A stretch of 40,078 nucleotides of DNA from a virus: IMG/VR virus record IMGVR_UViG_3300043395_002695, positions 1-40,078 of that record; one strand, 5' to 3'. Shown here piece after piece: positions 13,797 to 40,078 of the stretch (the stretch's first letter is position 1; every line of letters begins with the position of its first letter). The notes beneath the pieces were generated by a model, which saw only the letters and a list, made by a program, of their open reading frames with translations, was not told where the DNA came from and did not search any database. A program made the position numbers and the translations under genes.

Positions 13797-13797
13797 T

Positions 13798-14463
13798 ATG
13801 AAACGAGTTTTAGTATTAGGCGGCACTGGAGACATTGGCCAAGCTATTGTGCAGGCCTTTGACGGGGACACAGTCGTTGCAGCAGGTCATGAGATATGTG
13901 ACCTCAGCAGTGCTGGCCATGTTGAGTCGTTTATCAAAGCAAATGCGCCTTTTGACACCATTGTACACTGCGCTGGTTTTAATAATCCTAAAACATTTGA
14001 TTCGTTAACCACCGAAGAAATTGAAAAGAACTTACAGATTAATCTACTGGGATTTTTGCCTATTATTCAAAACAACATTGACTACTGGAAAAAATCCGGG
14101 AATGGTAAACTAGTAATAATCAGCAGTTTATACGGACAGTTTGGTCGACGAGGTCGTTTGCCTTACAGTGTCAGCAAACATGGTCTAATTGGCGTAACCA
14201 AGACCTTGGCTATCGAACTAGCGCCTATAGGAGTTATGGTCAATGCTGTAAGTCCTGGCTATATTGCTACTAAGATGACTACAAAAAATAACACAGCTGC
14301 TACTATTGAAAGACTAGTACAGGGCATACCCGCAGGCAGGCTAGGTCGTCCCGAGGAAATTGCAAGCTTAGTCAAATTTTTAGCCAGCGACCAAAACACT
14401 TACATAACAGGACAAGACATTGCAGTAGATGGTGGGTATACTGCTGGAGGTTTTCAACAATAA
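13798..14463 (+). CDS. short-chain dehydrogenase/reductase
   Basis: A 221-residue classical SDR. The NAD(P)-binding motif is G8-GTGDIG (8-14). HCAGFNNP sits where NNAG is usual. IISSLYGQ supplies the catalytic serine, and Y123-SVS-K127 is the YxxxK motif. The C-terminal AVDGGYTAGG is typical. It likely reduces or oxidises a keto group on the intermediate made by the neighbours. It begins one base after the ThDP enzyme and overlaps the cyclase start (TAATG). Confidence 0.9.
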   Translation: MKRVLVLGGTGDIGQAIVQAFDGDTVVAAGHEICDLSSAGHVESFIKANAPFDTIVHCAGFNNPKTFDSLTTEEIEKNLQINLLGFLPIIQNNIDYWKKSGNGKLVIISSLYGQFGRRGRLPYSVSKHGLIGVTKTLAIELAPIGVMVNAVSPGYIATKMTTKNNTAATIERLVQGIPAGRLGRPEEIASLVKFLASDQNTYITGQDIAVDGGYTAGGFQQ

Positions 14464-15617: not shown

Positions 15618-16791
15618 TTTTGGTGCAACAAATATTAAATCTGTAGTCTATGACACAGACAGTGCCGCAGTAATTGACTTTGAAAGTGTTGCCAGTCCCA
15701 GTCAAACAAATCACGACACTGCACCGGCATTTACAGTACCTGTTAACTTGTACAGACAAGCCCTAGACATTACTGCTGGTAAACTGTTGGCCATGCATAA
15801 TGATGTAGACAGCATTTATATCTGTTCGGAAATGCATGGCTTTACCATGGACAATCAATACATTAGTTGGAAAGATAGTAGAGCTGATCTAAAAAAGATA
15901 GACAAGTTAGCCTTTTACAATGAAACAGGCTTAATTACACGCCCAGGTATTGCTTACGCTACCTTAAAAACACTAGAACCAAAAAATAAAAGAATTGGCA
16001 CTCTTGTAGATGCTGTGTTAGACTCTAGTATAGGAAATGACATAACATTGACTGCCAGTCAAGGCTTTGTAAACAAGTATACACAGTTACTCAGTACTAA
16101 AATTATAAACGAATTTGAAGGTCTATCAGTTGTTCCTTTGGCCCAAGGCTGTATAGGTACATACAGAAACAAAATGGTATATGGTGGTCTTGGAGATCTT
16201 CAAGCAGCTATTCTGGGCGCAGGCTTGGGTATTACCGCAGATATGGTCATTAACCTGGGCACAGGCAGTCAAGTTGCTGTACTTACAGACAGCTTAGATC
16301 AAGGAGATCTAAGACCCTATGTCAACGGTACTTGGGTTAGAGTTCTAAGTCATATTCCATCAGGCCGAGCACTGAATGTAGTTGCTGAACTAGTTGAACC
16401 ATCGAGGTTTTGGTCAATTTGGCAAAATTTAAACGCAGAAGAAATTTTAACCAGCGATCATCAACAGGTTGATTTGAATTTATTTGCCAGTGCTTGGCAA
16501 TATACTAATTGTAGTGGCTTTATTAGACTTCAAGAAAGTCAAACAGTACAACACTTTGTAGCCGCAGTTGCAGCAGCATGGGTCAGACAGTATGTTATTG
16601 CTATGCACAGACTTGATTGTAAAACAAATCAAACTCGGGTAGCGGTGTCCGGGGGATTGGCCCACAAGAGCCCATTCCTTATAGACTGTTTAACTACACT
16701 AAGTCCTGGTAGAACTTATTTTCAACCTAAACTAGCCACAGGTGAAGAAACACTAGACGGTCTCATAAAAATTCATGCTGACAAAAAATGA
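15598..16791 (+). CDS. FGGY-family carbohydrate kinase
   Basis: A 397-residue protein. It starts with TTG 15598 (MKILLVDFGATNIKS); the N-terminal phosphate-1 loop leaves no room for a later start. The second motif GLGDLQAAILGAG contains the likely catalytic base D200, and NLGTGSQV supplies another ATP-site loop. The family phosphorylates sugars and polyols (xylulose, glycerol, sedoheptulose and others). The 20-base overlap with the cyclase suggests coupled translation, so it may phosphorylate the cyclase substrate or product. It is shorter than typical members (about 480-500 residues). Confidence 0.8.
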   Translation: MKILLVDFGATNIKSVVYDTDSAAVIDFESVASPSQTNHDTAPAFTVPVNLYRQALDITAGKLLAMHNDVDSIYICSEMHGFTMDNQYISWKDSRADLKKIDKLAFYNETGLITRPGIAYATLKTLEPKNKRIGTLVDAVLDSSIGNDITLTASQGFVNKYTQLLSTKIINEFEGLSVVPLAQGCIGTYRNKMVYGGLGDLQAAILGAGLGITADMVINLGTGSQVAVLTDSLDQGDLRPYVNGTWVRVLSHIPSGRALNVVAELVEPSRFWSIWQNLNAEEILTSDHQQVDLNLFASAWQYTNCSGFIRLQESQTVQHFVAAVAAAWVRQYVIAMHRLDCKTNQTRVAVSGGLAHKSPFLIDCLTTLSPGRTYFQPKLATGEETLDGLIKIHADKK

Positions 16792-17606
16792 TTGAAATTA
16801 TAAACAACAACAGACAAATTTTAATAAGCGATCAGCATTCACTTTATTTGGAAGAAATTAAAGCAGGATTTGATCATTATTTTGACAGTGTTGACTGCAG
16901 CACTTCAGCAGGAATTTCAACAGTTGATTTCAGCAGTCCTGGTTGGCATACAGTAAAAGGCTATAACAAGCACAAAATCTTCTTTCCTTTTGTTGCCGAA
17001 CCACTGGCAACCACACAACAATATATTGACTTACTAGAACTGACATCAGGCGATACTATTCTTGACTTGGGTGCTTATTCTGGTTTGGCATCTATAATGT
17101 TTAAAGAAACAGTAGGTAAGACTGGGCATGTAATAGCAGTAGAAGCAGACCCCATTAATCATACAGCCTGTGCAACCAATTTTGCTGAATATGAAAAAGT
17201 AACAGGACTAACAATTGATTTAATATCTGCTGCTGTTTGGAATCATTCTAATGGACTTGCTTTTACATCCGATGGATCCATGGGTTCCGCTGCACGAGAA
17301 TTACTGCATGGAAAAAAGACTTCTATGCTCGTAAATTCTATAACCATTCCAGACATAGCTAAAAGATTTAACTTAGAAAAAGTTGACTGTATCAAATGCG
17401 ATGTAGAAGGAGCAGAAAGAGTAGTGTTTGATGATCTACAATGGTTTGAATCTTTTAAACCCAAATTGATTATTGAGGTTCATCAAACAGTAGATGCTGT
17501 TGCAGGCATTGAAAAATTAAAGACCATTGGTTATCAATTTGAATCACATGAACAAATTGGATGCGAGTATCCGTTGATGTTTGGAATTTATTCGAGTACA
17601 TTATGA
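16788..17606 (+). CDS. FkbM-family methyltransferase
   Basis: A 272-residue protein. TILDLGAYSGLASIMF (from about D89) is SAM motif I, AVEADPINHTACATNF follows, and KVDCIKCDVEGAERVVFDD is the FkbM signature. The enzyme most likely O-methylates a sugar hydroxyl. It overlaps the kinase stop by 4 bases and the epimerase start by 4 bases (ATGA at both ends), inside the sugar operon. Confidence 0.85.
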   Translation: MIEIINNNRQILISDQHSLYLEEIKAGFDHYFDSVDCSTSAGISTVDFSSPGWHTVKGYNKHKIFFPFVAEPLATTQQYIDLLELTSGDTILDLGAYSGLASIMFKETVGKTGHVIAVEADPINHTACATNFAEYEKVTGLTIDLISAAVWNHSNGLAFTSDGSMGSAARELLHGKKTSMLVNSITIPDIAKRFNLEKVDCIKCDVEGAERVVFDDLQWFESFKPKLIIEVHQTVDAVAGIEKLKTIGYQFESHEQIGCEYPLMFGIYSSTL

Positions 17607-18394
17607 AAATAGCAGTATTAGGCGCAAATGGATTTGTTGGCAGTAATTTGGCCAAACATCTTGCACACAAGCATCAAGTAGTGCCAGTTACAAGAAAAAC
17701 TCTAGACCTATTAGACTGTGTCAAAGTCGCAAAGTTTTTGACTAAAGAAAAATTCGATGTTGTGATTATGGCAGCAGCCACTATGACTGACAATCAATCA
17801 TTGGCAGATACAAGAAACAACTTAGGTATTTTTATGAACTTTTATAATAACAGTGACTTGTTTAAAAAGTTTATCAATTTGGGCAGTGGAGCAGAATACG
17901 ACAAATCGCAGAACTTAGACTGTGTCGAAGAAACAGAAATTTTTACAAGATTGCCACAGGACAGTTATGGATTTGGGCAAAATCTTAAAAGTAGACTCAG
18001 CGTAGAAAAACCAGGATTTTACAATCTTAGAATTTTTAACTGTTTTGGTAAAGGCGAGATCCCTACCAGATTGTTTCCAAAATTGTTAAAGACCAAAACA
18101 AAATTTGAAATTACTGATGATAGATATTTTGATTATTTCAGCATTCAAGATTTATGTACAGTGGTTGAAAGTTTTGTAGAAAATAATCATGTTGTTTACG
18201 ATGTAAACTGTGTATACGAAAATAAAATTAAAATAAGCCAAGCTGCTAAATTATTTGCTGATATTAAAAAATTACGACAAGAAATTGTAGTGGTCAGTAC
18301 CAGCAAGAATAATTATACTGGTAGCCACGAAAATTTATATTCACTGGGAATCGATTTGCAGGGGCTTGAACAGGGATTTAAAGATTATGTATAA
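17603..18394 (+). CDS. NAD-dependent epimerase/dehydratase-like protein with altered active site
   Basis: A 263-residue extended-SDR protein. I start at ATG 17603, where the Rossmann motif G-ANGFVG begins directly (MKIAVLGANGFVGSN). The active-site region reads S121-Y122-GFG-Q126, so the catalytic lysine of YxxxK is glutamine; the next lysine is three residues later. It could be a reductase or epimerase with altered chemistry, or a binding protein. NLGSGAEYD replaces the usual STDEVYG-type stretch. It overlaps the FkbM and next methyltransferase genes. Confidence 0.75.
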   Translation: MKIAVLGANGFVGSNLAKHLAHKHQVVPVTRKTLDLLDCVKVAKFLTKEKFDVVIMAAATMTDNQSLADTRNNLGIFMNFYNNSDLFKKFINLGSGAEYDKSQNLDCVEETEIFTRLPQDSYGFGQNLKSRLSVEKPGFYNLRIFNCFGKGEIPTRLFPKLLKTKTKFEITDDRYFDYFSIQDLCTVVESFVENNHVVYDVNCVYENKIKISQAAKLFADIKKLRQEIVVVSTSKNNYTGSHENLYSLGIDLQGLEQGFKDYV

Positions 18395-19169
18395 TATTGA
18401 TAGCTGTCCTGCATGCGGTTCTGACAACATTACCAAACTGCCAGCATACATGCATGAATTTGTAGCTTGGAGAGTAACGGGCTATAGACCCCATGGACAT
18501 TTGCCCATTAAAGGCGTACACTGTTTAAGTTGTCAATTTACCTGCAGCGACAGCAGATTAGATGACAGGGAAGAACAATTACTGTACGATGATTACCGGG
18601 GTGCCAGTTATAACCAACAAAGAATTGCATGCGAACCTACATATGAAAATTATTTAAATAATTTTGACAGCAACGAATACATGCAGATAAGACGATTTGG
18701 TATTATGGAATTAATAAACAAATATGTTGATGCTGCAAATATTCAAACTGTCTTAGACTACGGTGGTAATAAAGGCGAACATATCCCCCAAGTTTTCAAT
18801 CATGCCAAAAGATATGTTTACGATATCAGCAATGTTGGCTTGTTGCCGGGAGTAGAATTATTTGATGTAAATTCAACTGAGGTTATGGATTTTATCATGT
18901 GCTGTCATGTACTAGAACATAAATCCGAACCCGCAGAACTAATTGAGCAAATCAAGAAATACGCAGATAACAACACTTGGTTTTATATTGAAGTGCCTGA
19001 CAACGAAATTTATTCTCTGCCCGGTGCTGTATTTCACGAACATATAAATTCCTTTACTTACAAATCAATGGTATCACTTTTGAGTAGACACGGAATAGAA
19101 GTGGTAGAAATAATATCAACATCTGCTAACAATGAACATATAATGTGCGTATTGGGAAAACTTAAATGA
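18387..19169 (+). CDS. SAM-dependent methyltransferase with N-terminal zinc ribbon
   Basis: A 260-residue protein. Two cysteine pairs, C7-PA-C10 and HCLSC (about 45-50), form a zinc ribbon as in the sugar C-methyltransferases of the NovU/TylC3 group. VLDYGGNKGEH is SAM motif I and CCHVLEHKSEPAELI is the usual motif after the third strand. The long C-terminal domain of TylC3-type enzymes is absent, so it is a shortened relative or a different methyltransferase. ATG 18387 was chosen because the zinc ribbon follows it directly. It overlaps the previous gene by 8 bases and the next by 4. Confidence 0.75.
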   Translation: MYNIDSCPACGSDNITKLPAYMHEFVAWRVTGYRPHGHLPIKGVHCLSCQFTCSDSRLDDREEQLLYDDYRGASYNQQRIACEPTYENYLNNFDSNEYMQIRRFGIMELINKYVDAANIQTVLDYGGNKGEHIPQVFNHAKRYVYDISNVGLLPGVELFDVNSTEVMDFIMCCHVLEHKSEPAELIEQIKKYADNNTWFYIEVPDNEIYSLPGAVFHEHINSFTYKSMVSLLSRHGIEVVEIISTSANNEHIMCVLGKLK

Positions 19170-20119
19170 CAAAGAAAATAGTTTATGTAACAGGCTGTTT
19201 GGGTTTTATGGGCAGTCATGTCACTGAAGCTTGTTTAGCCAAAGGTTGGTATGTAATTGGTGTAGATAACTGTACCTATGCAGCCAATACAGGTTGGATT
19301 GACAGTTGGGACATGCGTTATCCCAATCAGTTTAATTTTATCAAATCGGACATCAATGACTTAGATAGGCTATATGACTGCGATTACATCATTAACATGG
19401 CTGCAGAAACTCATGTAGACAACAGCATTGAAGACAGCGACAGATTTGTACACAGCAATATAAATGGCGTACACAACATTCTTAAATTGATTAACAAAAA
19501 GAAACATCGTAGACCTGTGCTGTTACATTTTAGCACAGATGAAGTCTACGGAGATATTGAACAGGGCAGTCACACAGAAACGGACTTGTTAAAGCCCAGT
19601 AACCCCTACAGTGCTACCAAAGCAGCCGCAGACCATTTAGTAACCAGCTGGGGCAGAACTTATGGAGTTCCTTATGTTATTGTGCGCCCCACCAACAACT
19701 ATGGTATCGGGCAGTATGTGGAAAAACTTATTCCCAAGACTGTTAAGTATCTTACAGTGGGTCGTAGGATAGATCTGCACAACAATGGCACTCCTGTGCG
19801 TACTTGGTTGTTTGCTGGTGATACTGCACAGGCTGTTATTACTATTATCGAATCTGGCGTGCAAAATGAAATATTCAATATCAGCGGTAATTATGAAACA
19901 CAAAATATTGTAGTGGTTAAAAAGATCCTGGATTTGATCATGCAGGATAAAAACTATAACATCGAAGACCACATCGAACACTTGAACAGAATTGGGCAGG
20001 ATGTTCGATACAGCATAGATGACACAAAACTAAAACAATTGGGATGGCAACCTCAAGCAGAGTTTGACAAAGAGCTGGAAAAAATAGTACAATACTATCA
20101 AGAAAACTTTATTTGGTAA
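19166..20119 (+). CDS. NDP-glucose 4,6-dehydratase (RmlB/RfbG family)
   Basis: A 317-residue extended SDR with the dehydratase set: GCLGFMGS (NAD-binding), MAAETHVDNSI, T124-D-E126 in STDEVYGD and Y148-SAT-K152. The DE pair after the threonine is diagnostic for 4,6-dehydratases, which convert a nucleotide-activated glucose into its 4-keto-6-deoxy form. RPTNNYGIGQYVEKLIP agrees with RmlB. Whether the carrier is dTDP or CDP cannot be read, but the adjacent E1-type dehydrase usually uses CDP. No glucose-1-phosphate nucleotidylyltransferase is present, so the host would supply the activated sugar. Confidence 0.9.
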   Translation: MTKKIVYVTGCLGFMGSHVTEACLAKGWYVIGVDNCTYAANTGWIDSWDMRYPNQFNFIKSDINDLDRLYDCDYIINMAAETHVDNSIEDSDRFVHSNINGVHNILKLINKKKHRRPVLLHFSTDEVYGDIEQGSHTETDLLKPSNPYSATKAAADHLVTSWGRTYGVPYVIVRPTNNYGIGQYVEKLIPKTVKYLTVGRRIDLHNNGTPVRTWLFAGDTAQAVITIIESGVQNEIFNISGNYETQNIVVVKKILDLIMQDKNYNIEDHIEHLNRIGQDVRYSIDDTKLKQLGWQPQAEFDKELEKIVQYYQENFIW

Positions 20120-20122
20120 CAC

Positions 20123-21442
20123 ATGGAACAGATCCTACAACAAGTTAGAGAATATATTCAACGCAAGCAACAGACAAAAACTTGGCGCGAGGGTAAAGAC
20201 TTTGTCAACTATGCTGGTGCATACTATGATGAAAGTGAATATGTAGCTGGCGTGGAAAGCCTGCTAAAAGGTTGGTTGGCCATGGGCGATGCTGGCCTTA
20301 AATTTGAACGAGAGTTTCCTAAGCAGTTTGGCAAGACAAAAGGCATTGTTACAAACAGTGGCAGTTCTAGTAATTTGCTAATGATGGCCAGTTTGACCAG
20401 CAAGCGTGGTTATAACTTGCCTAAAGGTACGAAAGTATTGATGCCTATTGCAGGATTTCCTACCACATTAAATCCTACACTGCAAATGGGTTTTCAGCCC
20501 GTGTTTGTAGACATTGAGCTGGATACATTGAATCTTAACTTAGATCAAGTTGAAGCAGCCCTAAAACAACAGCCTGACATTCGTGTTATTACTTTTGCTC
20601 ATGTACTGGGCAATCCACCTAACATGTATAGGCTTATGGAATTGGTAAAACGGTATGATTTAATTTTATTGGAAGACTGCTGTGATGCACTGGGCAGTAC
20701 CTACGATGGCGTACCTCTTGGATCCTTTGGTCTAATGAGTAGTTGCAGTTTTTATCCTGCACACCATATGACCATGGGTGAAGGCGGTTATGTAGCTACA
20801 AATGACGCACAACAAGATATCATTCTTCGCAGTTTCCGTGAATGGGGTCGTGGCTGTTATTGCGTAGGGCCCGAAGCTAACAAGTTAAAGTGCGGCACTT
20901 GTGGCAAGCGTTTTAATAATTGGATTCCTACTCTGCCAGATGAAATCTTTGACCACAAATATGTCTACGATGAAATTGGCTACAACCTAAAACCAATTGA
21001 ATTACAGTGTGCCATGGGCTTAGAACAGTTAAAGAAACTGCCTGAAATTCATGAACTGCGAAAGCGTAACTATGCACTGCTGTTTGACATTTATAAAGAA
21101 TATGAAGAATTTTTCCACTTACCTCGAGCACAGGCCAAATCGGATCCATCATGGTTTGCTTTTCCCTTAACAATAAGGCAGGGCGCACCATTTAGTCGAA
21201 GTGATATAGTAGACTATTTGGAAGAAAACCTTATTCAGACTCGTCCGTATTTTGCTGGTAATATTATGTTACAACCAGCATACAGCCACTTGATGGATCC
21301 GATGGTAGCCAAGAATAATTTCCCTATGGCTACCCATGCTATGACACACACTTATTTCCATGGCACAAGTCCTGTTATTACGCCTGAACAGATTGCTTAT
21401 ATTGGAAAAATTGTTCGGGGCTTTATGAGTTTGTATGTGTAA
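20123..21442 (+). CDS. E1/RfbH-type 4-keto-6-deoxy-sugar 3-dehydrase
   Basis: A 439-residue DegT-fold enzyme. FYPAHHMTMGEGG carries H214 at the position of the PLP-binding lysine, which in E1 turns the enzyme from a transaminase to a PMP-dependent dehydrase. C245, C247, C257 and C260 with CGKRF match the [2Fe-2S] ligands of E1, with a longer insert between the second and third cysteine. It removes the C3 hydroxyl of a CDP-4-keto-6-deoxyhexose in the 3,6-dideoxysugar pathway. Its usual NADH-ferredoxin-type partner E3 (AscD) is not present. It lies 3 bases after the dehydratase; its stop is inside a late-promoter-like octamer. Confidence 0.9.
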   Translation: MEQILQQVREYIQRKQQTKTWREGKDFVNYAGAYYDESEYVAGVESLLKGWLAMGDAGLKFEREFPKQFGKTKGIVTNSGSSSNLLMMASLTSKRGYNLPKGTKVLMPIAGFPTTLNPTLQMGFQPVFVDIELDTLNLNLDQVEAALKQQPDIRVITFAHVLGNPPNMYRLMELVKRYDLILLEDCCDALGSTYDGVPLGSFGLMSSCSFYPAHHMTMGEGGYVATNDAQQDIILRSFREWGRGCYCVGPEANKLKCGTCGKRFNNWIPTLPDEIFDHKYVYDEIGYNLKPIELQCAMGLEQLKKLPEIHELRKRNYALLFDIYKEYEEFFHLPRAQAKSDPSWFAFPLTIRQGAPFSRSDIVDYLEENLIQTRPYFAGNIMLQPAYSHLMDPMVAKNNFPMATHAMTHTYFHGTSPVITPEQIAYIGKIVRGFMSLYV

Positions 21443-27046: not shown

Positions 27047-28096
27047 ATGGTGAAATTTAATTACATTGAAGACTATGTTGAGTTTATTGGTGGCTATCGT
27101 GACATCAATAATCGACAGTTAGGTCTTTTTGACACAGTTCCTGCACCCGTAAGTCTGGCAAGATATGACATTAAAATTGTGGACAGTCTTGCCAGTCAAA
27201 CTGCTGAAAGAAATATCAGCTACACTGACAAACAAGCAGAACTGGCTAAAAAGATTGTGCTTAAATATCGTCGACAACTCAGTCAATTGCCCACGCCTGT
27301 TGAAGTTCCTGAAAACATCAGCAGGTACAGAATGGCAATTAGGCAAGTTGATAGAAGCCGCAAAGCTTACATTGAAAACAACAAATTAATTTTAAAATTT
27401 CCCTATGACAGCGAACTGATCACAGCCGTTAAAAATCAAAGCAAACAAGGTGATGGCTCAGCAGTATTTGATGCAGAAGAAAAAATTTGGCAGTTTGGTA
27501 TTACTGAAAGTGTTGTAAACTGGATCTGTGCTATAAGTGAAAATCACAATATTGAAGTTGATAAGTCTGTTACTGATTTATATATTAAAATCCTCGAGTG
27601 CGAACAAAAACCTTTTGCTATTGAACTTAGAGACACTGGTACGGGCTATGAAATTGTTAATGCTGCAGACAGTTTAAAAGAGTATATTGTTTCTTGCTTG
27701 GGGGGCTTTGGCTACGACAATATTGTGGCACTAATTGACAATGCAGAAGTATTAGGTTATACTGTGCCCAAAGAACTGTTGCTGGATTTTTATAGTAAAT
27801 TTAGAAGTGAGCTTACAGTAAGGCAACGGCTTTGTGTTAGCCGTAGGCAAAGATATTTTAGCAAAAATAAATTAGGTCTTGAAGAAATTGTGGAATATGC
27901 TAGGCGTACCAACAGACTACCGGTATATGTCTACGCTACAGGTTTACCAAAAACCAGCACCGAAGAAGTTAAATACTTAAGACAAGAAGGAGTTGATACT
28001 AAAATCAAATGCCTTGTCAGCGAAAGCAGATTGTTAGTGGGCACACGCAAACAAGCTTGGATCAAACAAGCTGAAAAAATCTTTTACATTGAATGA
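27047..28096 (+). CDS. HARP-like domain protein upstream of UvsW
   Basis: A 349-residue protein. Around residues 115-165, KLILKFPYDSELITAVKNQS and then VFDAEEKIWQFGITE resemble the HARP motif, which in SMARCAL1-type proteins helps bind branched DNA. The remainder shows basic stretches (RQRLCVSRRQRYFSK) but no enzyme motif. It is immediately followed, with a 4-base overlap, by the UvsW helicase gene. A role in guiding the helicase to forks or R-loops is plausible but inferred. There is no ribosome site; the transcript may be leaderless. Confidence 0.6.
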   Translation: MVKFNYIEDYVEFIGGYRDINNRQLGLFDTVPAPVSLARYDIKIVDSLASQTAERNISYTDKQAELAKKIVLKYRRQLSQLPTPVEVPENISRYRMAIRQVDRSRKAYIENNKLILKFPYDSELITAVKNQSKQGDGSAVFDAEEKIWQFGITESVVNWICAISENHNIEVDKSVTDLYIKILECEQKPFAIELRDTGTGYEIVNAADSLKEYIVSCLGGFGYDNIVALIDNAEVLGYTVPKELLLDFYSKFRSELTVRQRLCVSRRQRYFSKNKLGLEEIVEYARRTNRLPVYVYATGLPKTSTEEVKYLRQEGVDTKIKCLVSESRLLVGTRKQAWIKQAEKIFYIE

Positions 28097-29553
28097 CTAC
28101 CTGTATAATTGAAATCAAAGATGAAGTAAACTGTAAACTTCACAATCTTGAATTAACTGACCGCAAGCGATTAGTTGAAAAGTTCAAGTACGAAATACCT
28201 GGCGCAAGATACTTACCCGCAGTTAGACTTGGACGATGGGATGGTAAAGTGCCCTATTTTAATCTCGGCGGCACAACTTACATAAACTTACTGCCTGACA
28301 TTATACCCTTTGTTGAAGAACGGGGCTATGATATTGACATACAGGACAGTCGTGAATACAGTACAACATTTGAATTCGAACCTGTAACAGAAACTACTTT
28401 TGCTGACATCAAGTGGCCCAAGGGACATCCTGCTGAAGGCGAGCCTATTCTATTGCGTGACTATCAAGTAGAAATCGTTAATAAGTTTTTAGAGAATCCG
28501 CAGTGCATTCAGGAAGTGGCCACAGGCGCAGGCAAAACTATTATGACAGCAGCATTATCTGCAAGTGTGCAGAAATATGGTCGTAGTGTGGTAATTGTAC
28601 CCAGCAAGAGTTTGGTCACACAGACAGAAGCAGACTATATCAACATGGGCTTAGATGTAGGTGTGCTGTTCGGTGATCGCAAAGAATACACACGCACACA
28701 TACTATCTGTACTTGGCAAAGTCTTAACACACTATTAAAGAATACTAAAAATTACGAAGCAGATGTTACTATTCATGAATTTGTAGAAAATGTAGTCTGC
28801 ATCATGGTAGACGAAGCTCACAGTGCCAAAGCAGACGCACTAAAAAGCTTGTTAACTTCTGTATTTGCCACTACTCCTATTCGTTGGGGACTAACGGGTA
28901 CTATTCCCAAAGAAGACTATGCGTTTCAAGCACTGAACTGTTGTATTGGACCAGTCATGGGCAGACTCAGTGCCAGCGAACTTCAAGAAGCAGGCCATCT
29001 CAGCAATTGTCATGTAAATATAGTTCAATTGGTAGACTATGTAGAGTACAAAGACTATCAACAAGAACTTAGATACTTACTGGAAACTGAATCAAGAATT
29101 GACTATCTCAGTCAATTAATTAATAAAATATCTGAATCGGGCAATACATTGGTCTTAGTGGATCGTGTGGGTCCAGGCAAAGAATTAGCCAGTAAAATCA
29201 ATAATGCTGTGTTTGTGTCGGGCGCGACCAAAGCAAAGGATCGAAAGGAAGAATACGATGAAGTGGCTGTTTCAGATGGGAAGGTTATTGTGGCGACTTA
29301 TGGTGTGGCCGCTGTGGGTATTAATATTCCTAGGATCTTTAATTTGGTTCTTGTGGAGCCCGGAAAAAGCTTTGTCAGGGTTATACAGTCTATTGGGCGA
29401 GGTATTAGGAAAGCGCAAGACAAGGACCATGTTGAAATTTGGGACATCACCTCAACCTGCAAGTTCGCAAAACGACACCTTACCAAGCGTAAAGCATTCT
29501 ACAAAGAAGCCAACTACCCATTCAGTTTGGAAAAATTAGACTGGCAGGCTTGA
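28093..29553 (+). CDS. uvsW: UvsW-like superfamily 2 DNA/RNA helicase
   Basis: A 486-residue protein, near the length of T4 UvsW (about 500). Walker A is A143-TGAGKT149 (motif I), D240-EAH243 is motif II, LTGTIPK is motif III and Q432-SIGR436-GIR is motif VI. The N-terminal about 110 residues agree with the UvsW N-terminal domain (RYLPAVRLGRWDGKVPYFNL). UvsW reverses stalled replication forks and unwinds R-loops, switching T4 from origin- to recombination-dependent replication. It overlaps its HARP-like neighbour by 4 bases. Its stop overlaps the next promoter. Confidence 0.9.
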   Translation: MTTCIIEIKDEVNCKLHNLELTDRKRLVEKFKYEIPGARYLPAVRLGRWDGKVPYFNLGGTTYINLLPDIIPFVEERGYDIDIQDSREYSTTFEFEPVTETTFADIKWPKGHPAEGEPILLRDYQVEIVNKFLENPQCIQEVATGAGKTIMTAALSASVQKYGRSVVIVPSKSLVTQTEADYINMGLDVGVLFGDRKEYTRTHTICTWQSLNTLLKNTKNYEADVTIHEFVENVVCIMVDEAHSAKADALKSLLTSVFATTPIRWGLTGTIPKEDYAFQALNCCIGPVMGRLSASELQEAGHLSNCHVNIVQLVDYVEYKDYQQELRYLLETESRIDYLSQLINKISESGNTLVLVDRVGPGKELASKINNAVFVSGATKAKDRKEEYDEVAVSDGKVIVATYGVAAVGINIPRIFNLVLVEPGKSFVRVIQSIGRGIRKAQDKDHVEIWDITSTCKFAKRHLTKRKAFYKEANYPFSLEKLDWQA

Positions 29554-30114: not shown

Positions 30115-30291
30115 ATGAAACTCGAACACGAATGGATTAGAGACCTGCACAAGTTAAGCATGATGTACAATGAGCAACGAGCACACAGAGATTTCCAAGC
30201 TGACGAAGTTTACAAGTTTGTGCAATGGGTCTATGAACAATATGGATACTTTTACAGTAAACCTGAGCTAACCAGTAAACATCACCAATGA
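30115..30291 (+). CDS. small hypothetical protein
   Basis: A 58-residue helical protein (MKLEHEWIRDLHKLSMMYNE) rich in aromatic and charged residues. AAAGGA lies 6-7 bases before ATG 30115. It ends in an ATGA overlap with the next gene. No function recognised. Confidence 0.65.
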   Translation: MKLEHEWIRDLHKLSMMYNEQRAHRDFQADEVYKFVQWVYEQYGYFYSKPELTSKHHQ

Positions 30292-31016
30292 CTAAAACTC
30301 TGGTAGTTTGTGGCTGTAGCTCAAGTTCTGCCAGTACTAGTCAACCTGGTTCAAGTTACGCTGAATTATTGGCTGATAAATTACGCTGGGACCTTGTGCA
30401 ATTAGCAAGACCTGGCATTAGCAATGGCGGTATAAGATTACAAATAGATGAATGCATAAAATTAAAACCAGATTTTGCTATCATTTCACCGACTTTTCAT
30501 GATCGAATTGAAATACCAATAAACAAATTTAATAGTGCAGTTGGTTTAAAAAATATAAATTATACCAATGTAGGGTACAATTTATTAAGCGAATCTCTGT
30601 CAAGTTTAGCTGTAAACAAATTAAACCCAGAGAGATGTCAACTATTATCCTCGGCCAAAACCACCGCTGTAAAATACTTTATTGATCAACTTTATGACAG
30701 TGATTGGAAACAACAGCTAGACACATGGATAATAAGAGATGGTATAACAGCACTATACCTTGCAGGAATTAATTTTATTGTTGTTCCTGACAATTTATGG
30801 TCAGTAGATTCTGTAAGACAAATAATACCTGATTTAATACCTGACCAGTTTTTGATTACTGATTCTAAAATGACACCGTCGCATGCAAGATTTTTACATC
30901 CTGTATTAGATCATGATCCTGGTTATCACAGTGACCCCGCAGGACAACAGTATCTCTCTGAAATATATTACGACATTATAATTAATTGGGAAAATTATGG
31001 GAAATCTAAAACCTAA
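30288..31016 (+). CDS. SGNH/GDSL-like hydrolase family protein
   Basis: A 242-residue protein. The N-terminus LVVCGCSSSSASTSQPGSSY followed by a helix and ARPGISNGGIRLQIDE follows the strand, serine loop and Gly/Asn-loop pattern of SGNH proteins, although the usual GDS is GCS. The C-terminal DPGYHSDPAGQQYLSEIYYD is placed like the last SGNH block. It might remove or attach an acyl group on a glycan, or be an inactive relative. It is more AT-rich than its neighbours, hinting at acquisition. It overlaps both flanking genes. Confidence 0.55.
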   Translation: MTKTLVVCGCSSSSASTSQPGSSYAELLADKLRWDLVQLARPGISNGGIRLQIDECIKLKPDFAIISPTFHDRIEIPINKFNSAVGLKNINYTNVGYNLLSESLSSLAVNKLNPERCQLLSSAKTTAVKYFIDQLYDSDWKQQLDTWIIRDGITALYLAGINFIVVPDNLWSVDSVRQIIPDLIPDQFLITDSKMTPSHARFLHPVLDHDPGYHSDPAGQQYLSEIYYDIIINWENYGKSKT

Positions 31017-32630: not shown

Positions 32631-33356
32631 ATGATTTATATCAACGGCGATAGTTATATGAAAATGTCCGATGGAAAAAATACCGGTGAATTTTTAGCTG
32701 CCAAGTTACAGACCACCGTTATAAACAATAGTATATTAGGGTCATCAAACGAAAGAATATTTAGAACAAGTTTGCGAGATTTAATCAATTTAAAAAAAAC
32801 AACCAATGAAAAAATTACAGCTATAATTGGTTTAAGTTACATATATAGAAAAAGTATCTGGGATCCGTTGGGACAAGACGACAGATGGAAACAAAGCAAC
32901 GACGGCGAATTTGCATGTTATCAAATATTTCAAGGAGAAAATTGGTTAGAAAAATTATTTAAAAATCAATCTTTTAATAATATGCCAGAACATTTAAAAA
33001 AATACAGTAAAGAAATAGCATTATTTTATAATCCTGAAGCAGAAGTAACAAATTTACTGCAATCAGTTGAACTTTTTTCTACTTGGTGTGAAAATAATAA
33101 TATCGATTACATTATTTTTTCGGGCCCCCGACAAGAAGATATAATAGATTTTACTGCACCATTTGTTGAACCTTTTTATAATTCTGTTGTAATAAAAAAA
33201 AATGTTTTAAACTTGTTTGAATTTAGTTTTTGTGAATATTGTGCATCACAAGGATTTAAAGGTTTTGATTTTGAAATTTTTGGGAAATATGCACATCACG
33301 GTCAAGCTGCTCATGAAAAATTTGCAGATTTTCTAATAGAGCAGTATAATTTGTAA
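32631..33356 (+). CDS. SGNH-like hydrolase family protein, AT-rich
   Basis: A 241-residue protein. MIYINGDSYM carries a GDS triad serine at about residues 6-8, ILGSSNERIF resembles the Asn-containing block, and KYAHHGQAAHEKFADFL provides a C-terminal histidine. These fit the SGNH fold better than those of the related gene at 30288. It is strikingly AT-rich, like the radical SAM cassette and unlike the flanking phage genes, which suggests a recent insertion. The substrate may be an acylated sugar. Confidence 0.6.
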   Translation: MIYINGDSYMKMSDGKNTGEFLAAKLQTTVINNSILGSSNERIFRTSLRDLINLKKTTNEKITAIIGLSYIYRKSIWDPLGQDDRWKQSNDGEFACYQIFQGENWLEKLFKNQSFNNMPEHLKKYSKEIALFYNPEAEVTNLLQSVELFSTWCENNNIDYIIFSGPRQEDIIDFTAPFVEPFYNSVVIKKNVLNLFEFSFCEYCASQGFKGFDFEIFGKYAHHGQAAHEKFADFLIEQYNL

Positions 33357-33357
33357 T

Positions 33358-33957
33358 ATGAAGTTTAAATCAGACATTGACATTGATTTCGCAGATAGAG
33401 ATCAAATTCTAAAATTACTCAAGCACACACCTGCTAGTATTATTCGCGACGATAAAGTCACTAAGCATAACACAGGTGTTTACTTTCAAGCGATACCACA
33501 AGATCCCTTTACTGGTCAGGCCAGTTTGGACTATGAAGCAGCAGAAGATCGTGGCTATCTTAAGTTAGACTTTTTAAATGTTAGTGTGTATGGTCGAGTA
33601 CAAAGTGAGCAACATCTAGTAGAACTAATGACTACAAAACCCGATTGGGCCAAACTGTATGACCGTGAATTCTGTGAGCAGTTAATTCATGTCAACGCAC
33701 ACTATGACACATTAATTAGAATGCCTGAACCGGTGGACAGTATCCCTAGAATGGCTATGTTTTTGGCAGTAATTCGTCCTGCAAAACGGCACTTGATTGG
33801 ACAGCCGTGGCGCGAAGTTGCTAAAACTATTTGGGACAAACCTCAAGATGGCAGTTATTTTTTTAAGAAGTCGCATAGCATATCTTACGCAACACTAGTA
33901 GCTGTAAACATGAATTTAAATGACCCTTCGTACAAGGGTAATGCTGCGACGCTTTGA
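33358..33957 (+). CDS. miniature DnaE-like (C-family polymerase palm) protein
   Basis: A 199-residue protein whose motifs follow, in order, those of the bacterial replicative polymerase DnaE: D6-I-D8-I-D10-F (PDxDxDF of the palm), H37-NTGVYF (HAxGVVI), D71 in LKLDFLN (KFDFLGL), FLAVIRPAKRHLIG (ALFRPGP) and K171-SHSISYATL (NKSHSAAYAL). The three catalytic aspartates are all conserved. The usual length is about 1,100 residues, so PHP, most of the fingers and the C-terminal domains are missing. It may be a domesticated polymerase core with another role, or a very small nucleotidyltransferase. It overlaps the opposite-strand gene by 42 bases. Confidence 0.65.
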   Translation: MKFKSDIDIDFADRDQILKLLKHTPASIIRDDKVTKHNTGVYFQAIPQDPFTGQASLDYEAAEDRGYLKLDFLNVSVYGRVQSEQHLVELMTTKPDWAKLYDREFCEQLIHVNAHYDTLIRMPEPVDSIPRMAMFLAVIRPAKRHLIGQPWREVAKTIWDKPQDGSYFFKKSHSISYATLVAVNMNLNDPSYKGNAATL

Positions 33958-34287
33958 ACGCTTTTGAGCGTTTTCTTTAAGGCTCAGTGCAGGCCCATAT
34001 TTTACCTCAACATCCTTACTGTTGAATGTCTTTAATGTTGGCCTAAATGGGTGCCATTCTGTTTTTAGAAATATGTTAATGGGCACCATTCTATTGCTTT
34101 CCCACCACCAAGCTTCACCCAGTTCTAAGTAAAGCCGTTTCTGCTCGGGTGTTTTTAACACAGCAAAATCATAGATGCTGGTTATTACATCATCTATGTT
34201 CTGTATGATTCCTATATATTCGTTCCCCCCATAAGTTAAAAAACTTAAAAAGGGATAGTCGTCTAATAATTTCTGATAGTCCTGCAC
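33916..34287 (-). CDS. conserved minus-strand phage protein
   Basis: A 123-residue protein, the only convincing minus-strand gene. It has a typical conserved-phage look: YPFLSFLTYGGNEYIGIIQN, LELGEAWWWESNRMVPINIF, TFNSKDVEVKYGP and a basic end (QKRSKRRSITLVRRVI). I recall similar proteins in marine T4-like phages, without known function. The start is GTG 34287; the region directly upstream offers only an exact late promoter (34293-34300), so the mRNA would be leaderless or nearly so. The 3' end overlaps the DnaE-like gene. Confidence 0.8.
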   Translation of the reverse strand: MQDYQKLLDDYPFLSFLTYGGNEYIGIIQNIDDVITSIYDFAVLKTPEQKRLYLELGEAWWWESNRMVPINIFLKTEWHPFRPTLKTFNSKDVEVKYGPALSLKENAQKRSKRRSITLVRRVI

Positions 34288-34347: not shown

Positions 34348-34848
34348 ATGCAGCAGATTAATACATACATCTACGACAATACGATCCTGATTCAGATAGC
34401 TACGGATCCAGAAATTGAACAAAGGAACAGAGTTGTGTACACTAGAACTATAACAGTCTACAAAGGTGTAGACAATATTATCAAAGTAAAAGTCCAAAAT
34501 CAGGATCAAAAACCCTATAATCTCACTAATGTACAGCCTTTGGTTTTTAGTGTCATTGACGATTATGTTACCAGCAACGCTAATGTTATATTTCAAAGCA
34601 ATGTAACAATCAGCAACGCCACAGCAGGCATCGGAACTGTAACTATCCCCGTTATAAACATTAATGCATTTGAGCGTGAACAGTACATTTACTCACTTTA
34701 TTACACAACAGGCAACACACAACAACCTGCTTATGTAGATGACAACTGGGGAGCTCAAGGGCAAATGGTTGTTGTGGGTACTGCATATCCTGAATTTACA
34801 GGCAATATATTTGTTGGCGACCCCGTAGAGGATTTGGGCACACTATAA
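34348..34848 (+). CDS. baseplate/tail-fibre-associated structural protein
   Basis: A 166-residue protein. Residues about 25-75 (RTITVYKGVDNIIKVKVQN; KPYNLTNVQPLVFSVID) resemble the N-terminal domain of baseplate upper proteins (DUF2479/BppU-like) and related phage tail proteins; the rest is beta-rich with Asn/Thr repeats. It directly precedes the giant fibre (TAATG overlap) and likely takes part in its attachment or in the baseplate. Structural rather than enzymatic. Confidence 0.65.
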   Translation: MQQINTYIYDNTILIQIATDPEIEQRNRVVYTRTITVYKGVDNIIKVKVQNQDQKPYNLTNVQPLVFSVIDDYVTSNANVIFQSNVTISNATAGIGTVTIPVININAFEREQYIYSLYYTTGNTQQPAYVDDNWGAQGQMVVVGTAYPEFTGNIFVGDPVEDLGTL

Positions 34849-37800
34849 TGACAATTAGCACAAGACGATTAAGATTACTACGCGGCAATGCAGCCGCAGT
34901 AGCTGCATTTACTGGGCTTCAGGGTGAATTGGTTTTTAATACTGATACATACACACTGCACCTGCAAGATGGCGCAACAGCAGGTGGCTATAGTCTTGCT
35001 ACTACTGCAGATTTAGCCAATATTAGTGCCAACGGCAATTATGGAAACAGTAATGTTGCTAGTTACTTAGCAAGTAATTCGAATGTAACAATTTTAACAA
35101 CTTCTAACATTACCTCTTACTCTGATATAATCGGTAATGTGTTTAGTGGTCAGTACTTAGTTTTAGGTAACGCTATAAACCAAGGCCAAAGTCCTTTTTT
35201 AATAGCCAATGTTAATAATGCAATTAATTTATTGACAGGTAATCGCGGCAACGGCAATGTCAGTATTCAATTGCGGGCAAATAATAACCTAACTGGCATT
35301 TATTTGCGAAATGATAACGGTTCGATGGGATTTAATACGGTCCCCAGCGGACCAAATATTGGTTATACTTTTACTTTTAACGGTAGTGCTTATGCCAACG
35401 AGTTTTACACTGAAGCCAATATGCCCACAGGATATCAGTTCAACACAACTGATGGGGACACTGGTCTTAGTCATGTAAATCTTGGTGGTAATTTAAGTGC
35501 TATTAGAATCCGTCAGGCTGGTCGCGAAACAGTTAAATTCTACAGCAACGATACTACCGAAATGCGTGGTAATATTGTTATCAGCGACGGTGTAAATTAC
35601 GGCCAATATCCTAATGCTTACATGCAGGTCTATGGCTATGCCAACAGCTATCAGCAGGTTGTTAACCAAAATCTAAGCAATAGTGCTGCCTCCAGCTCCG
35701 ACTTTGTTGCCACAGCAGACAATGGCAGCGACACTTCTTATTTCATAGACATGGGCATTAACAGCAGCCAATTTGCCAGCGACAGTTGGTTCCCAGAGTC
35801 TAGTACAATAAATGATGGTTACTTGTATGTTGTAGGTTACGATGCTGCAGGACCTAGTACAGGTAACATTGGTAATTTATATATTGGCAGTACAAATGGT
35901 GTTGTAAAAACATTCATAGGCAATACCTCAGATGCTAATGTAGTAACCACAGTCAGCACTAACTTATTTGCTGTCAGTGGAAACATCACAGCCACTGGTA
36001 CACTACGAACTAATGCTACAACCATATCATTAGGCTACCATGCAGGCAACAGTGGCCAAGGCGCACTGACTGTTGCTGTTGGTAACCAAGCAGGTGAAAT
36101 TGATCAAGGTCTGCAAGCTACAGCAGTTGGTGCTGGCGCTGGTAACTATGCTCAAGGTATTGGTACTACGGCAGTGGGTACTAATGCAGGAGCTGTTAAC
36201 CAAGGGCTTCGCGCGGTAGCTATCGGGGCCTTGGCAGGATCACAAAATCAAGGTCAATATGCTGTGGCTATTGGTAACTTTGCCGGCGGCACTAATCAAG
36301 CAAATAACAGCATTATATTAAGCGCCACAGGCACCAATTGGACTGCCAGTACTTCGGGTTTCTTTGTAGCACCTGTTGCAACTAGTACCACTGGCAATGT
36401 TTTATATTATAATACAACCACAAACGAAATAACTTACGGCGCTGCCGGCAGCACAAATTCGTTATCAAACGGCACCAGTAATGTGTCAATACTCACAGCC
36501 AATGGTAATGTCACAGTGACAGCAGCTGGCACAAAAACTTGGACATTAGGCACTGACGGAACATTAACATTACCAAGCGGCGGACAGATAGGTGAAATTC
36601 AGTATGCTGGTGGTATTGATTTGTTTGCGTCAAACGCAATGGCCTACACACAAATCAATTATAACAACACAAATTTTATCTATGCAGACTCTGGCGTTTC
36701 TGCATTGCAAACCCCTAATGCTTATGTAACTGCTGATACTCTCACAAAAAGAGCTTTGATTCAAGTAATAGATCCTGATACTTCAGCGGACAGTACTTGG
36801 AATTTTGCAGCCAACGGAGAATTAGCATTACCTGCCGATAGAGGAAAAATTGGTCTTAATTCTTATGTAAATGGCATGGACCTTTATAATAACAGTGGCG
36901 GTTCGGGCTATGTAAAAATGAATTTTGGTGACCAGTCTTATATGTGGGTCGATCCTGCAGGTGCCCACATTCAAACTTCTGGGGGTAATTGGGATTTTAA
37001 TGCCAACGGTGTATTGGTGGCCACTGGTAATATTGTAGCTAGTTTTGCCACAAGTCCAGCACCTGTAATTTCTGGTTATGCTTTTGACGGAGTTAGCGTA
37101 AACGCTAATATCGGAACATTCAATACAATTTATGGAACTATAGGCACTGCCTCACAAACAAATATTACAACTGTTGGCACTTTAACTGGTTTGGCAGTAT
37201 CCGGCACTACTAACACAACCACCTTACAGGTCGGTGGCAATGCTACTATTGGCAACTTAATAGTAACTGGTAACTCAACAATTATTGGTAATATTACCCA
37301 GATTAGCGGTAACAGTGGTCAATTCTTTGGTAATGCGGCCACAGGCTTTAACGCACTATACACAGGTATTGCCGCAGGCTATACACCGTTACAACAGACA
37401 ATCATACAGAGTAGTGGTAATTACAACGACTATGTGCAGATTAATTTGCAAAATATCAACAGCGGCAATGCAGCCACTGGTGACTATATTGTAACTGCTG
37501 ACAATGGATCCGACGCTACATATTTCATTGACATGGGCATTGCCAGCAGTAATTTCGATGGTTTGAGTGCTAATATTGTTGGTAATTCAGTTCGTGCAAA
37601 TGACGGTTATTTGTATACCATGGGCAACGGCTCAGGCAATCAGGGCGGTAACTTAATCTTTGGCACAGGCACAGTAGGCAAGGTAGTTAAGATTATTGCA
37701 GGTGGTGGTAATACATCAAATGTTGTTGCTACTGTTTCTGCAGGTGCATTTACAGTTAATGGCAATATAACAGGTTCTTACATATTGGGTAACGGTAGCC

Positions 37801-40078
37801 AGTTGACTGGAGTTGCAGCCGCTACAGCAACAACAGCACAATATGTAACTGGACTGACCAGCGCCAATGTAATAACGGCATTGGGCTATACACCTTCGAA
37901 TTACGGCGATGCAAACGTTGCAGCGTTTTCTGGTAATTTGAATCCAGGTAACATCATATTAGCCAACGCAAGTGGCAGAATACAATTTAAGGCTTCGGGC
38001 ACAACAAACGGTTCTTACATATACGACACACTTGGTTCTTTGTACCTGTCACCGAATACATCCTACTCGGCTACTGCAGGCGTTATTATAGCCGGTTCTG
38101 GATTTATTTTAGGTCCCAACAGTGCAAGAAACCTAACTCTAAACTATAACAATGTCAACGGCGCAGTTGGTCTCCAAGCCAACGTGGTAATTGGTACAAC
38201 ACAAGCCGGCGGCAACTTGACTGTAGCTAACAGTATTACAGCCAGCGGTAATGTAACTGGCAACTATTTTATTGGTAATGGCGCACTATTAACAGGTATT
38301 ACCGCCAGTGCTAATTATGGAAATACCAATGTTGCAGCGTTCTTAGGTGCATACGGCAGTAACACTATTGTAACTACTGGTAATATTACTGGCGGTTACT
38401 TCATCGGCAATGGCGCATTATTAACGGGCATAGCAGCAAGTTCTAACTATGGTAACACCAATGTAGCTGCATATTTGCCAACTTATACTGGAAATGTAAA
38501 TGCAGCTTACTATTTTGGTAATGGCAGTCAATTGACAGGAATTACTGCTACCACAGCCACAACTGCACAGTATGTAACAGGATTGACCAGTGCTAATGTA
38601 ACAACGGCTTTAGGATATACACCTACAAATTACAGTGACAGTAATGTAGGTTCCTATTTGTCTTCGGGCACCACCGGTGCAATAAGTGCATTGTCAGCAA
38701 CATTCCGTAACGGTGAACCCAATCCTAATTACAACACTTCACAAATAACATTTGGATATGCAGGCACTTCACAGTACCCTCATTTCATACATACTTTACA
38801 CAATGCTGGTTCAGGATCCTACAACGCTATTAATTTTTACACCAGCGATGGTACACAGAGTGGTGTATTCCCAACAAATGGTATATTAGGTTTAACTATA
38901 AGCAATGGTAAAATTGGCGTAGGTAATAACACTAATCCTTCCTATACCTTAGATGTAGCAGGTAATGCTTATGTAAGCGGCAATATATCAGCCTCATACT
39001 TTGTTGGTAATGGTAGTTTACTAACCGGCATTGTAGCAACATCTAGCTATAATGATTCTAATGTTGCTGCTTTCTTAGCCAATATTGGCAGTAACACAAT
39101 AACTACAACAGGCAATATTACTGGTAATTACTTTATCGGTAATGGAGCACTGTTAACTGGCATATCAGCCAGCGCCAACTACGGAAATACTAATGTTGCA
39201 GCGTTCTTAGGTGCATACGGTAGTAACACTATTGTAACTACTGGTAATATTACAGCTGGTAATTTAATTGGAAATGCATCAGGTACAACAGCTTCTTATA
39301 CAGGCAATGTAACTGGTAATTTCTTCATTGGTAACGGTTCTACTTTAACAGGTGTAACAAATTACAGCAATGCTAATGCTGTATCAATGTTAAGCACTAA
39401 TACCAATGTCATTATTGGTAACACTAACGTTTATCCGTTGCAGGGTAATATTACACAGGTATTCGTTGGTAATGCCACAGCACTAACCAGCGGCGGCAAT
39501 ACTGGCCCAACTTTGACCAATATACTGAATAATGCATACTATGATGCCGCCGGCGCACTACGCTATCGCAATACACAGACTGGTGCATTATCAATTGCAT
39601 TGGGTGGTTCAGGAGGAATTTCAGTAGGTGGAACAACTGGAAGTGTAACAGCCAATGCTGCTAGCGGCATGGGCGCATGGTTAACTCTTAACGGTACTAC
39701 TCTTCAAACATATAACAGTATTGGAATTACCAGTTCTGGCACAATAACAACCACTAGTGGTTCATTGGTAACTGGTGCGGCTGTCAGTACTTTGTTCAAT
39801 ACAGTGGCCAGCACTGTTAATATGGGTGGTGCGGCAACCACTATTGCCATGGGCGCAAGTACTGCAACAGTTACAATTGGTTCAGGTACTGGTAATCTTA
39901 CAGTTGGTAATATTAGTGCTGGTGGCAACATTACAGTCGGCAATGTTATTGGTCTAACCACAAACACAACTATTACTGCAGGCACATATACAACTACATT
40001 TGATAATGTGGGCAATGTCACAGTAAGTGGCAATTTGACAATCAACGGTGTATATGCTGGCTATGCGCCAGCTCGTGC
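34848..40078 (+). CDS. giant repetitive tail fibre / adhesin, 3' end outside window
   Basis: The frame stays open from ATG 34848 to the window end, more than 1,740 codons. The N-terminal TRRLRLLRGNAAAVAAFTGL and GELVFNTDTYTLHLQDG match the phage fibre N-terminal domain of the Mtd/hyaluronidase-like type. Around residues 400-480, repeats of the type AVAIGALAG and TAVGTNAG resemble the YadA-like head beta-roll. Later the units YFIGNGALLTGI and NYGNTNVAAFL recur, with a near-identical 145-base repeat 864 bases apart. The protein is rich in G, N, T, S and A, low in charge, and almost surely trimeric. A C-terminal chaperone domain may lie beyond the edge. It forms a host-recognition fibre. Confidence 0.85.
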   Translation, partial: MTISTRRLRLLRGNAAAVAAFTGLQGELVFNTDTYTLHLQDGATAGGYSLATTADLANISANGNYGNSNVASYLASNSNVTILTTSNITSYSDIIGNVFSGQYLVLGNAINQGQSPFLIANVNNAINLLTGNRGNGNVSIQLRANNNLTGIYLRNDNGSMGFNTVPSGPNIGYTFTFNGSAYANEFYTEANMPTGYQFNTTDGDTGLSHVNLGGNLSAIRIRQAGRETVKFYSNDTTEMRGNIVISDGVNYGQYPNAYMQVYGYANSYQQVVNQNLSNSAASSSDFVATADNGSDTSYFIDMGINSSQFASDSWFPESSTINDGYLYVVGYDAAGPSTGNIGNLYIGSTNGVVKTFIGNTSDANVVTTVSTNLFAVSGNITATGTLRTNATTISLGYHAGNSGQGALTVAVGNQAGEIDQGLQATAVGAGAGNYAQGIGTTAVGTNAGAVNQGLRAVAIGALAGSQNQGQYAVAIGNFAGGTNQANNSIILSATGTNWTASTSGFFVAPVATSTTGNVLYYNTTTNEITYGAAGSTNSLSNGTSNVSILTANGNVTVTAAGTKTWTLGTDGTLTLPSGGQIGEIQYAGGIDLFASNAMAYTQINYNNTNFIYADSGVSALQTPNAYVTADTLTKRALIQVIDPDTSADSTWNFAANGELALPADRGKIGLNSYVNGMDLYNNSGGSGYVKMNFGDQSYMWVDPAGAHIQTSGGNWDFNANGVLVATGNIVASFATSPAPVISGYAFDGVSVNANIGTFNTIYGTIGTASQTNITTVGTLTGLAVSGTTNTTTLQVGGNATIGNLIVTGNSTIIGNITQISGNSGQFFGNAATGFNALYTGIAAGYTPLQQTIIQSSGNYNDYVQINLQNINSGNAATGDYIVTADNGSDATYFIDMGIASSNFDGLSANIVGNSVRANDGYLYTMGNGSGNQGGNLIFGTGTVGKVVKIIAGGGNTSNVVATVSAGAFTVNGNITGSYILGNGSQLTGVAAATATTAQYVTGLTSANVITALGYTPSNYGDANVAAFSGNLNPGNIILANASGRIQFKASGTTNGSYIYDTLGSLYLSPNTSYSATAGVIIAGSGFILGPNSARNLTLNYNNVNGAVGLQANVVIGTTQAGGNLTVANSITASGNVTGNYFIGNGALLTGITASANYGNTNVAAFLGAYGSNTIVTTGNITGGYFIGNGALLTGIAASSNYGNTNVAAYLPTYTGNVNAAYYFGNGSQLTGITATTATTAQYVTGLTSANVTTALGYTPTNYSDSNVGSYLSSGTTGAISALSATFRNGEPNPNYNTSQITFGYAGTSQYPHFIHTLHNAGSGSYNAINFYTSDGTQSGVFPTNGILGLTISNGKIGVGNNTNPSYTLDVAGNAYVSGNISASYFVGNGSLLTGIVATSSYNDSNVAAFLANIGSNTITTTGNITGNYFIGNGALLTGISASANYGNTNVAAFLGAYGSNTIVTTGNITAGNLIGNASGTTASYTGNVTGNFFIGNGSTLTGVTNYSNANAVSMLSTNTNVIIGNTNVYPLQGNITQVFVGNATALTSGGNTGPTLTNILNNAYYDAAGALRYRNTQTGALSIALGGSGGISVGGTTGSVTANAASGMGAWLTLNGTTLQTYNSIGITSSGTITTTSGSLVTGAAVSTLFNTVASTVNMGGAATTIAMGASTATVTIGSGTGNLTVGNISAGGNITVGNVIGLTTNTTITAGTYTTTFDNVGNVTVSGNLTINGVYAGYAPAR
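35700..37640 (+). repeat. duplicated domain inside the fibre
   Basis: Two copies of a domain start near 35700 (ADNGSDTSYFIDMGINSS) and near 37490 (ADNGSDATYFIDMGIASS). Both continue with NDGYLY and end in a GNIT-type strand. The copies are clearly diverged in DNA, so the duplication is old. Confidence 0.7.
37790..38635 (+). repeat. second in-frame repeat family in the fibre
   Basis: The units at about 37792-37905 and 38517-38630 share GNGSQLTG, a TATTAQYVTGLTSANV stretch and TALGYTP. They interleave with the other repeat family, giving the fibre a mosaic of two repeat types. Confidence 0.7.
38250..39259 (+). repeat. near-identical in-frame repeat, spaced 864 bases
   Basis: About 145 bases (38250-38395) recur at 39114-39259, encoding YFIGNGALLTGI, an SANYGNTNVAAFLGAYGSN segment and IVTTGNIT. 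The DNA differs at only few positions in the core. The spacing is exactly 288 codons, so recombination between copies would keep the frame. A third, weaker copy begins near 38390. Confidence 0.8.

Follow-up and report, generated by a model that had tools for sequence, protein, structure and literature searches.

A probable C-terminal subunit of a split minimal DNA polymerase III alpha in an uncultured phage

A minimal DNA polymerase III (Pol III) alpha subunit encoded in two pieces has been described in the 'group 2.2' jumbo phages, among which Agrobacterium phage Atu_ph07 was placed (Iyer et al. 2021, Viruses 13:63, PMC7824862). A survey of marine jumbo phages found PF07733, the DnaE palm family, in 51.9% of one cluster (PMC9123017), and these matches plausibly correspond to the N-terminal half (N-half) of the split enzyme. 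Here we analysed 40,078 nucleotides of viral DNA (positions 1 to 40,078 of IMG/VR virus record IMGVR_UViG_3300043395_002695, called the window), in which the gene at 33358-33957 (+) encodes a protein of 199 residues. In our assessment this gene probably encodes the C-terminal subunit (C-half) of a split minimal Pol III alpha of T4-like jumbo phages, the two halves of which would join as an auxiliary polymerase.

In the comparison with the group 2.2 enzyme nothing essential differs. The window protein is a standalone C-terminal piece with the metal- and template-binding motifs of DnaE; its relatives encode a distant N-terminal, nucleoside triphosphate-binding piece with a GRGS motif (found in each of the 12 host assemblies or whole phage genomes searched, and in a 338-kb relative contig), and the seven genomes tested for it carry a family-B polymerase as well, no other Pol III domains having been found. 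It fits every feature of the group 2.2 enzyme that could be tested. It is half of an enzyme already described and not a new kind of enzyme. This work adds the sequence of one more member, from a phage not in culture; it also places the split point more sharply, tests conservation, counts co-occurrence, predicts structures for both halves and extends the family to one non-jumbo phage, the 141-kb Slickus01.

Motifs, conservation and fold of the C-half

The open reading frame (ORF) of the C-half begins with ATG, 1 nt past the stop of the upstream gene, and contains in this order DIDIDF, HNTGV, LKLDFLN, FLAVIRPA and KSHSISYA. A six-frame scan of the window with the loose patterns DxDxD[FV], D[FI]L[NG], RP[AG][PK] and K[SA]H[SA] (HNTGV was not scanned separately) found the motifs clustered only in this ORF, as had been proposed. 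By alignment with DnaE, D-I-D-I-D-F (33373-33390, +; D6, D8, D10) corresponds to PDxDxDF, at about position 400 of the E. coli chain, and I-R140-P141-A-K143 (33772-33786, +) is the equivalent of FRPG. The hhalign comparison places H37-N-T-G40-V (33466-33480, +) at HAGGV, K69-L-D71-F-L-N (33562-33579, +), which carries the third catalytic aspartate, at KFDFLG and, in a second aligned segment, F169-K170-K-S-H173-S-I-S-Y177-A (33862-33891, +) at FNKSHSxAYA.

Conservation was evaluated in 138 distinct C-half sequences (minimum pairwise identity 33%) and 79 distinct N-half sequences (minimum 26%). D6, D8, D10, H37, G40, K69, D71, R140, P141, K143, F169, K170, H173 and Y177 were invariant in all 138, which bears out the earlier reading that the catalytic aspartates D8, D10 and D71 are retained, and G.GRGS, R102 and E106 were invariant in all 79 N-half sequences. 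Judged from these alignments, invariance in both halves points to an active site under selection and not to decay. It contradicts the idea that the C-half is the remnant of a host dnaE that was captured and is now decaying, which its short length and the several database entries named 'hypothetical protein' might suggest; taking into account also the deep divergence of the family across phages of alpha- and gammaproteobacteria and the single split point in 20 paired genomes, we rejected this explanation as extremely improbable.

At the sequence level the protein matched PHROG 11778 'DNA polymerase' from end to end (E=2e-61), a label that hides that only half of an active site is present; other phage DNA polymerase PHROGs gave weak matches through the KSHS region. 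The Pfam scan of the window protein returned no match, and its PDB sequence search only a chance one. A small C-half profile reached only E ~1.3 against DnaE, yet it was colinear at three places, and against 21 cellular DnaE sequences hhalign gave E=1.3e-4. The AlphaFold2 model of the C-half (88-sequence alignment) had a mean predicted local distance difference test (pLDDT) of 93.8 and a predicted template modelling score (pTM) of 0.85, with D8 and D10 on the strand 7-11 and D71 on the strand 69-74. In the Foldseek search against the PDB the top 8 matches were all Pol III alpha (including 7pu7, 4iqj, 5lew, 2hpi and 3e0d), with probability up to 1.00, and DnaE structures were the sole credible matches. 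Two checks proposed with the first-pass annotation of this DNA, a profile comparison with C-family polymerases and a structure prediction, thus agree with its assignment of the protein to the palm and fingers of this family in a phage.

Its further claim of a self-contained miniature polymerase core did not hold. The motifs and aspartates of the active site were correctly read, and what was overlooked is that the GS-type nucleotide-binding motif of the C-family palm is not present in the 199 residues: the part of the active site with GxGRGS is encoded by a second gene located elsewhere. The C-half does fold confidently by itself in the AlphaFold2 model and has an ORF of its own in every case, as would be expected of a miniature polymerase or a DNA-binding protein acting alone. 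Considering that it has no GS motif, that the N-half is encoded too in every whole genome or assembly checked, and that the GRGS residues of the N-half are as invariant as the aspartates of the C-half, a single-chain function was rejected and is regarded as very unlikely.

The N-terminal partner and the split point

The N-half was found by searching PF07733 against five reference phages that carry C-half homologues. The homologues themselves were unmatched; a second short ORF, far off, matched at model positions 16-98 and was the only one over the cut-off, with no other Pol III alpha domain (PHP was not searched separately). This ORF carries GVGRGSSVASY, the GS motif of DnaE. Its profile aligns to residues 380-455 of Taq DnaE and 321-393 of E. 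coli DnaE, and the C-half begins at about residue 400 of the latter, so that the DnaE palm is cut in a short loop between the half with the GS motif and the catalytic strand. Since the N-half ends in EFLK/N or EFLK/R, comparable to '...EFLN' of DnaE, and the C-half begins with (M)KxxSDIDIDF, at '(P)DxDxDF', the two together rebuild one continuous DnaE palm. The split point was identical in the 20 paired genomes.

Against the 21 cellular DnaE sequences the N-half gave E=2e-9 with hhalign. When the halves of the 20 genomes were joined row by row, a concatenation made purely for comparison, the alignment ran over the junction without a break, at E=4.7e-14 and 98% probability; KSHS aligned as a separate segment, and large deletions occurred only in the thumb and fingers. 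The RP-to-KSH interval is about 30 residues vs about 112 in DnaE, and the DxD-to-HxxG interval, which holds the thumb, 26 vs about 110. With this interval, 199 residues and no GRGS in the window, the window protein is not a complete DnaE. The N-half of a relative (L189) was modelled by AlphaFold2 with pLDDT 89 and pTM 0.73, and its top 6 Foldseek matches were all Pol III alpha, the same enzymes found with the C-half.

The phage enzyme shares with bacterial DnaE (Pol III alpha, family C; PF07733/PF17657) the catalytic motifs of the palm, RP(G/A), KSHS and the fold. It differs in that it would consist of about 370 residues in two chains (N subunit about 175, C subunit about 195), whereas DnaE has about 1150 in one, and in that thumb, PHP, tandem HhH, OB and clamp-binding tail were not seen (PHP, as above, without a separate search). 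No separate fingers gene was found, the matches to the fingers family PF17657 being confined to the C-half ORF, and among 168 C-half and 91 N-half ORFs with their flanks there was neither a fused gene nor a pair of adjoining ones.

In cyanobacteria DnaE is likewise encoded in two genes, whose products carry a split intein, and the split lies at the FNKSHS motif. This precedent is what favours a post-translational ligation of the phage halves by the same means. The phage cut is at a different site, and the stop-to-stop ORFs, 188-246 residues for the C-half and 165-199 for the N-half, leave no room for intein halves, the termini being those described above. We therefore rejected intein joining on the lengths and ends of the ORFs and predict no ligation; its probability is, in our view, negligible.

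Distribution and proposed role of the split enzyme

By tblastn, 90 phage records had a near full-length C-half homologue, one copy each, with at most 52% identity to the window protein. Nearly all of them were of 280-490 kb; a few were partial and one was a circular phage of 141 kb. The closest GenBank homologue was that of Atu_ph07 (52% identity). The database start of this protein, gp074 (L002 10001-10576), lies at locus position 10082, 81 nt downstream of the homologous start, and for this reason the annotated protein is without the catalytic DxDxD motif. The 141,644-bp Alishewanella phage Slickus01 (L295) has the genes of both halves on one strand, separated by about 11 kb; as this phage is under 200 kb, the split enzyme also occurs outside the jumbo phages. 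Another scan of viral sequences, with the Vibrio C-half as sole query, found nothing. A metagenome-assembled genome of Neomarinimicrobiota (L107 / G018) includes phage contigs with N-half, C-half and family-B polymerase genes, from either infection or mis-binning.

The N-half gene is located tens of kb or more from the C-half gene. It is present in the 338-kb relative contig; the C-half encoded there and that of the window are 74-75% identical. In a set of other large contigs from IMG/VR, 7 of the 13 with an N-half and 2 of the 12 with a C-half carried both; these records are often fragments, so the absence of one half proves nothing. The C-half usually follows SSB/UvsX and then UvsW, with primase/DnaB helicase downstream, and the N-half adjoins a GroES-like gene near the clamp loader. 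A family-B polymerase was found in the seven genomes tested (the five reference phages, G002 and G018).

Taking into account these data, N and C most likely come together in trans as an active auxiliary polymerase with a weak hold on DNA, which would carry out synthesis in repair or recombination, an activity predicted from sequence. By comparison with DnaE, the palm is cut in the short loop that precedes the DxDxD strand, and its two parts are encoded by separate genes. The N subunit supplies the GxGRGS motif for deoxynucleotide binding; the C subunit contributes the three metal-binding aspartates, the RPxK and KKSH elements of the fingers and the strands that resemble HAGGV and KxDFLG. The subunits may associate non-covalently to form one active site of Pol-beta type, and the complex would add nucleotides by two-metal catalysis. 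Since the thumb is gone (about 26 residues in place of about 110), binding to DNA would be weak, and with most of the fingers, PHP and the C-terminal modules lost too, the action is expected to be distributive. The neighbouring genes, and the presence of a family-B replicase in the same genomes, suggest an auxiliary role in recombination- or repair-linked synthesis and not that of main replicase; recruitment would probably be through the UvsX, UvsW, primase-helicase and clamp machinery of the phage.

A missing thumb and largely missing fingers, together with the replicase already there, could also be expected if N and C formed a nucleotidyltransferase of the Pol-beta fold acting on another substrate (end-tailing, a primer, or modification of tRNA or nucleotides) and not a templated polymerase, and the invariant catalytic residues would suit any nucleotidyl transfer. 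Two fingers motifs specific to DnaE, RPxK and KKSHxxxY, are retained, however, with their key residues invariant, and the genes sit in DNA replication and recombination modules. We consider this explanation rather unlikely, though the most serious of those examined.

Several observations weigh against an auxiliary polymerase formed by the two halves. No N-half, and no GRGS motif, was found in the 40-kb window; since this contig is a fragment, the partner would lie outside it. Five contigs of more than 180 kb (G042, G012, G056, G058 and G059) had one half only, through truncation or real loss. The Foldseek E-values were modest (4e-3 for C and 2e-2 for N), and no paper was found with experimental work on the halves binding each other or polymerising DNA. 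Finally, the evolutionary distances of N and C were correlated in the 20 genomes (r=0.91); in a 7-genome control an antisense neighbour of the C-half gave 0.88 with C, and N gave 0.77. As the neighbour correlates as well or better, the correlation was dropped as non-specific: it is expected of any two vertically inherited genes and was not counted as evidence for N-C binding.

The active site of a replicative polymerase is here distributed over two unlinked genes, both strictly conserved in a large number of phages already in possession of a family-B replicase. This raises the questions of what role a second, minimal polymerase has, and whether a family-C palm works without thumb and PHP. We give about even chances to the broader proposal that N and C in trans are the smallest working C-family polymerase known, thumb-less and of about 370 residues, a model of the palm and fingers core before the bacterial replicase gained the rest of its domains, and with a dedicated function alongside that of the family-B replicase.

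Other genes of the window

The conserved upstream neighbour of the replication and recombination module is represented in the window by a UvsW-type helicase gene at 28093-29553 (+) (PHROG 16, E=5e-77; Pfam ResIII, DEAD and Helicase_C). A convergent small gene of PHROG 11637 (33916-34287, -; 123 residues) overlaps the 3' end of the C-half gene. Its product has a conserved WWWESNR and a basic C-terminus, and it is kept beside the C-half in most relatives, across very divergent phages; it is possible that it is a partner or regulator of the C-half. Two proteins appeared SGNH/GDSL-like by eye, with an N-terminal GDS-type motif (30288-31016 and 32631-33356, both +). The second, directly upstream of the C-half gene, had a sub-threshold match to DUF6071.

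In the first part of the window there are two large radical S-adenosylmethionine (SAM) proteins (1450-2976 and 4141-6225, +) and a gene similar to NAD synthetase (8588-9556). They are followed at 11943-21442 (+) by a cluster, on this phage DNA, of a thiamine diphosphate (ThDP) enzyme, a short-chain dehydrogenase/reductase (SDR), a cyclase similar to 3-dehydroquinate synthase, a methyltransferase, nucleotide-sugar epimerases and a DegT aminotransferase, which may serve sugar or cyclitol biosynthesis, with a modified sugar as the product. At the other end, an ORF of 1743 residues (34848-40076, +), with no credible PHROG match, runs off the end of the contig; its product is probably a repetitive tail or structural protein.
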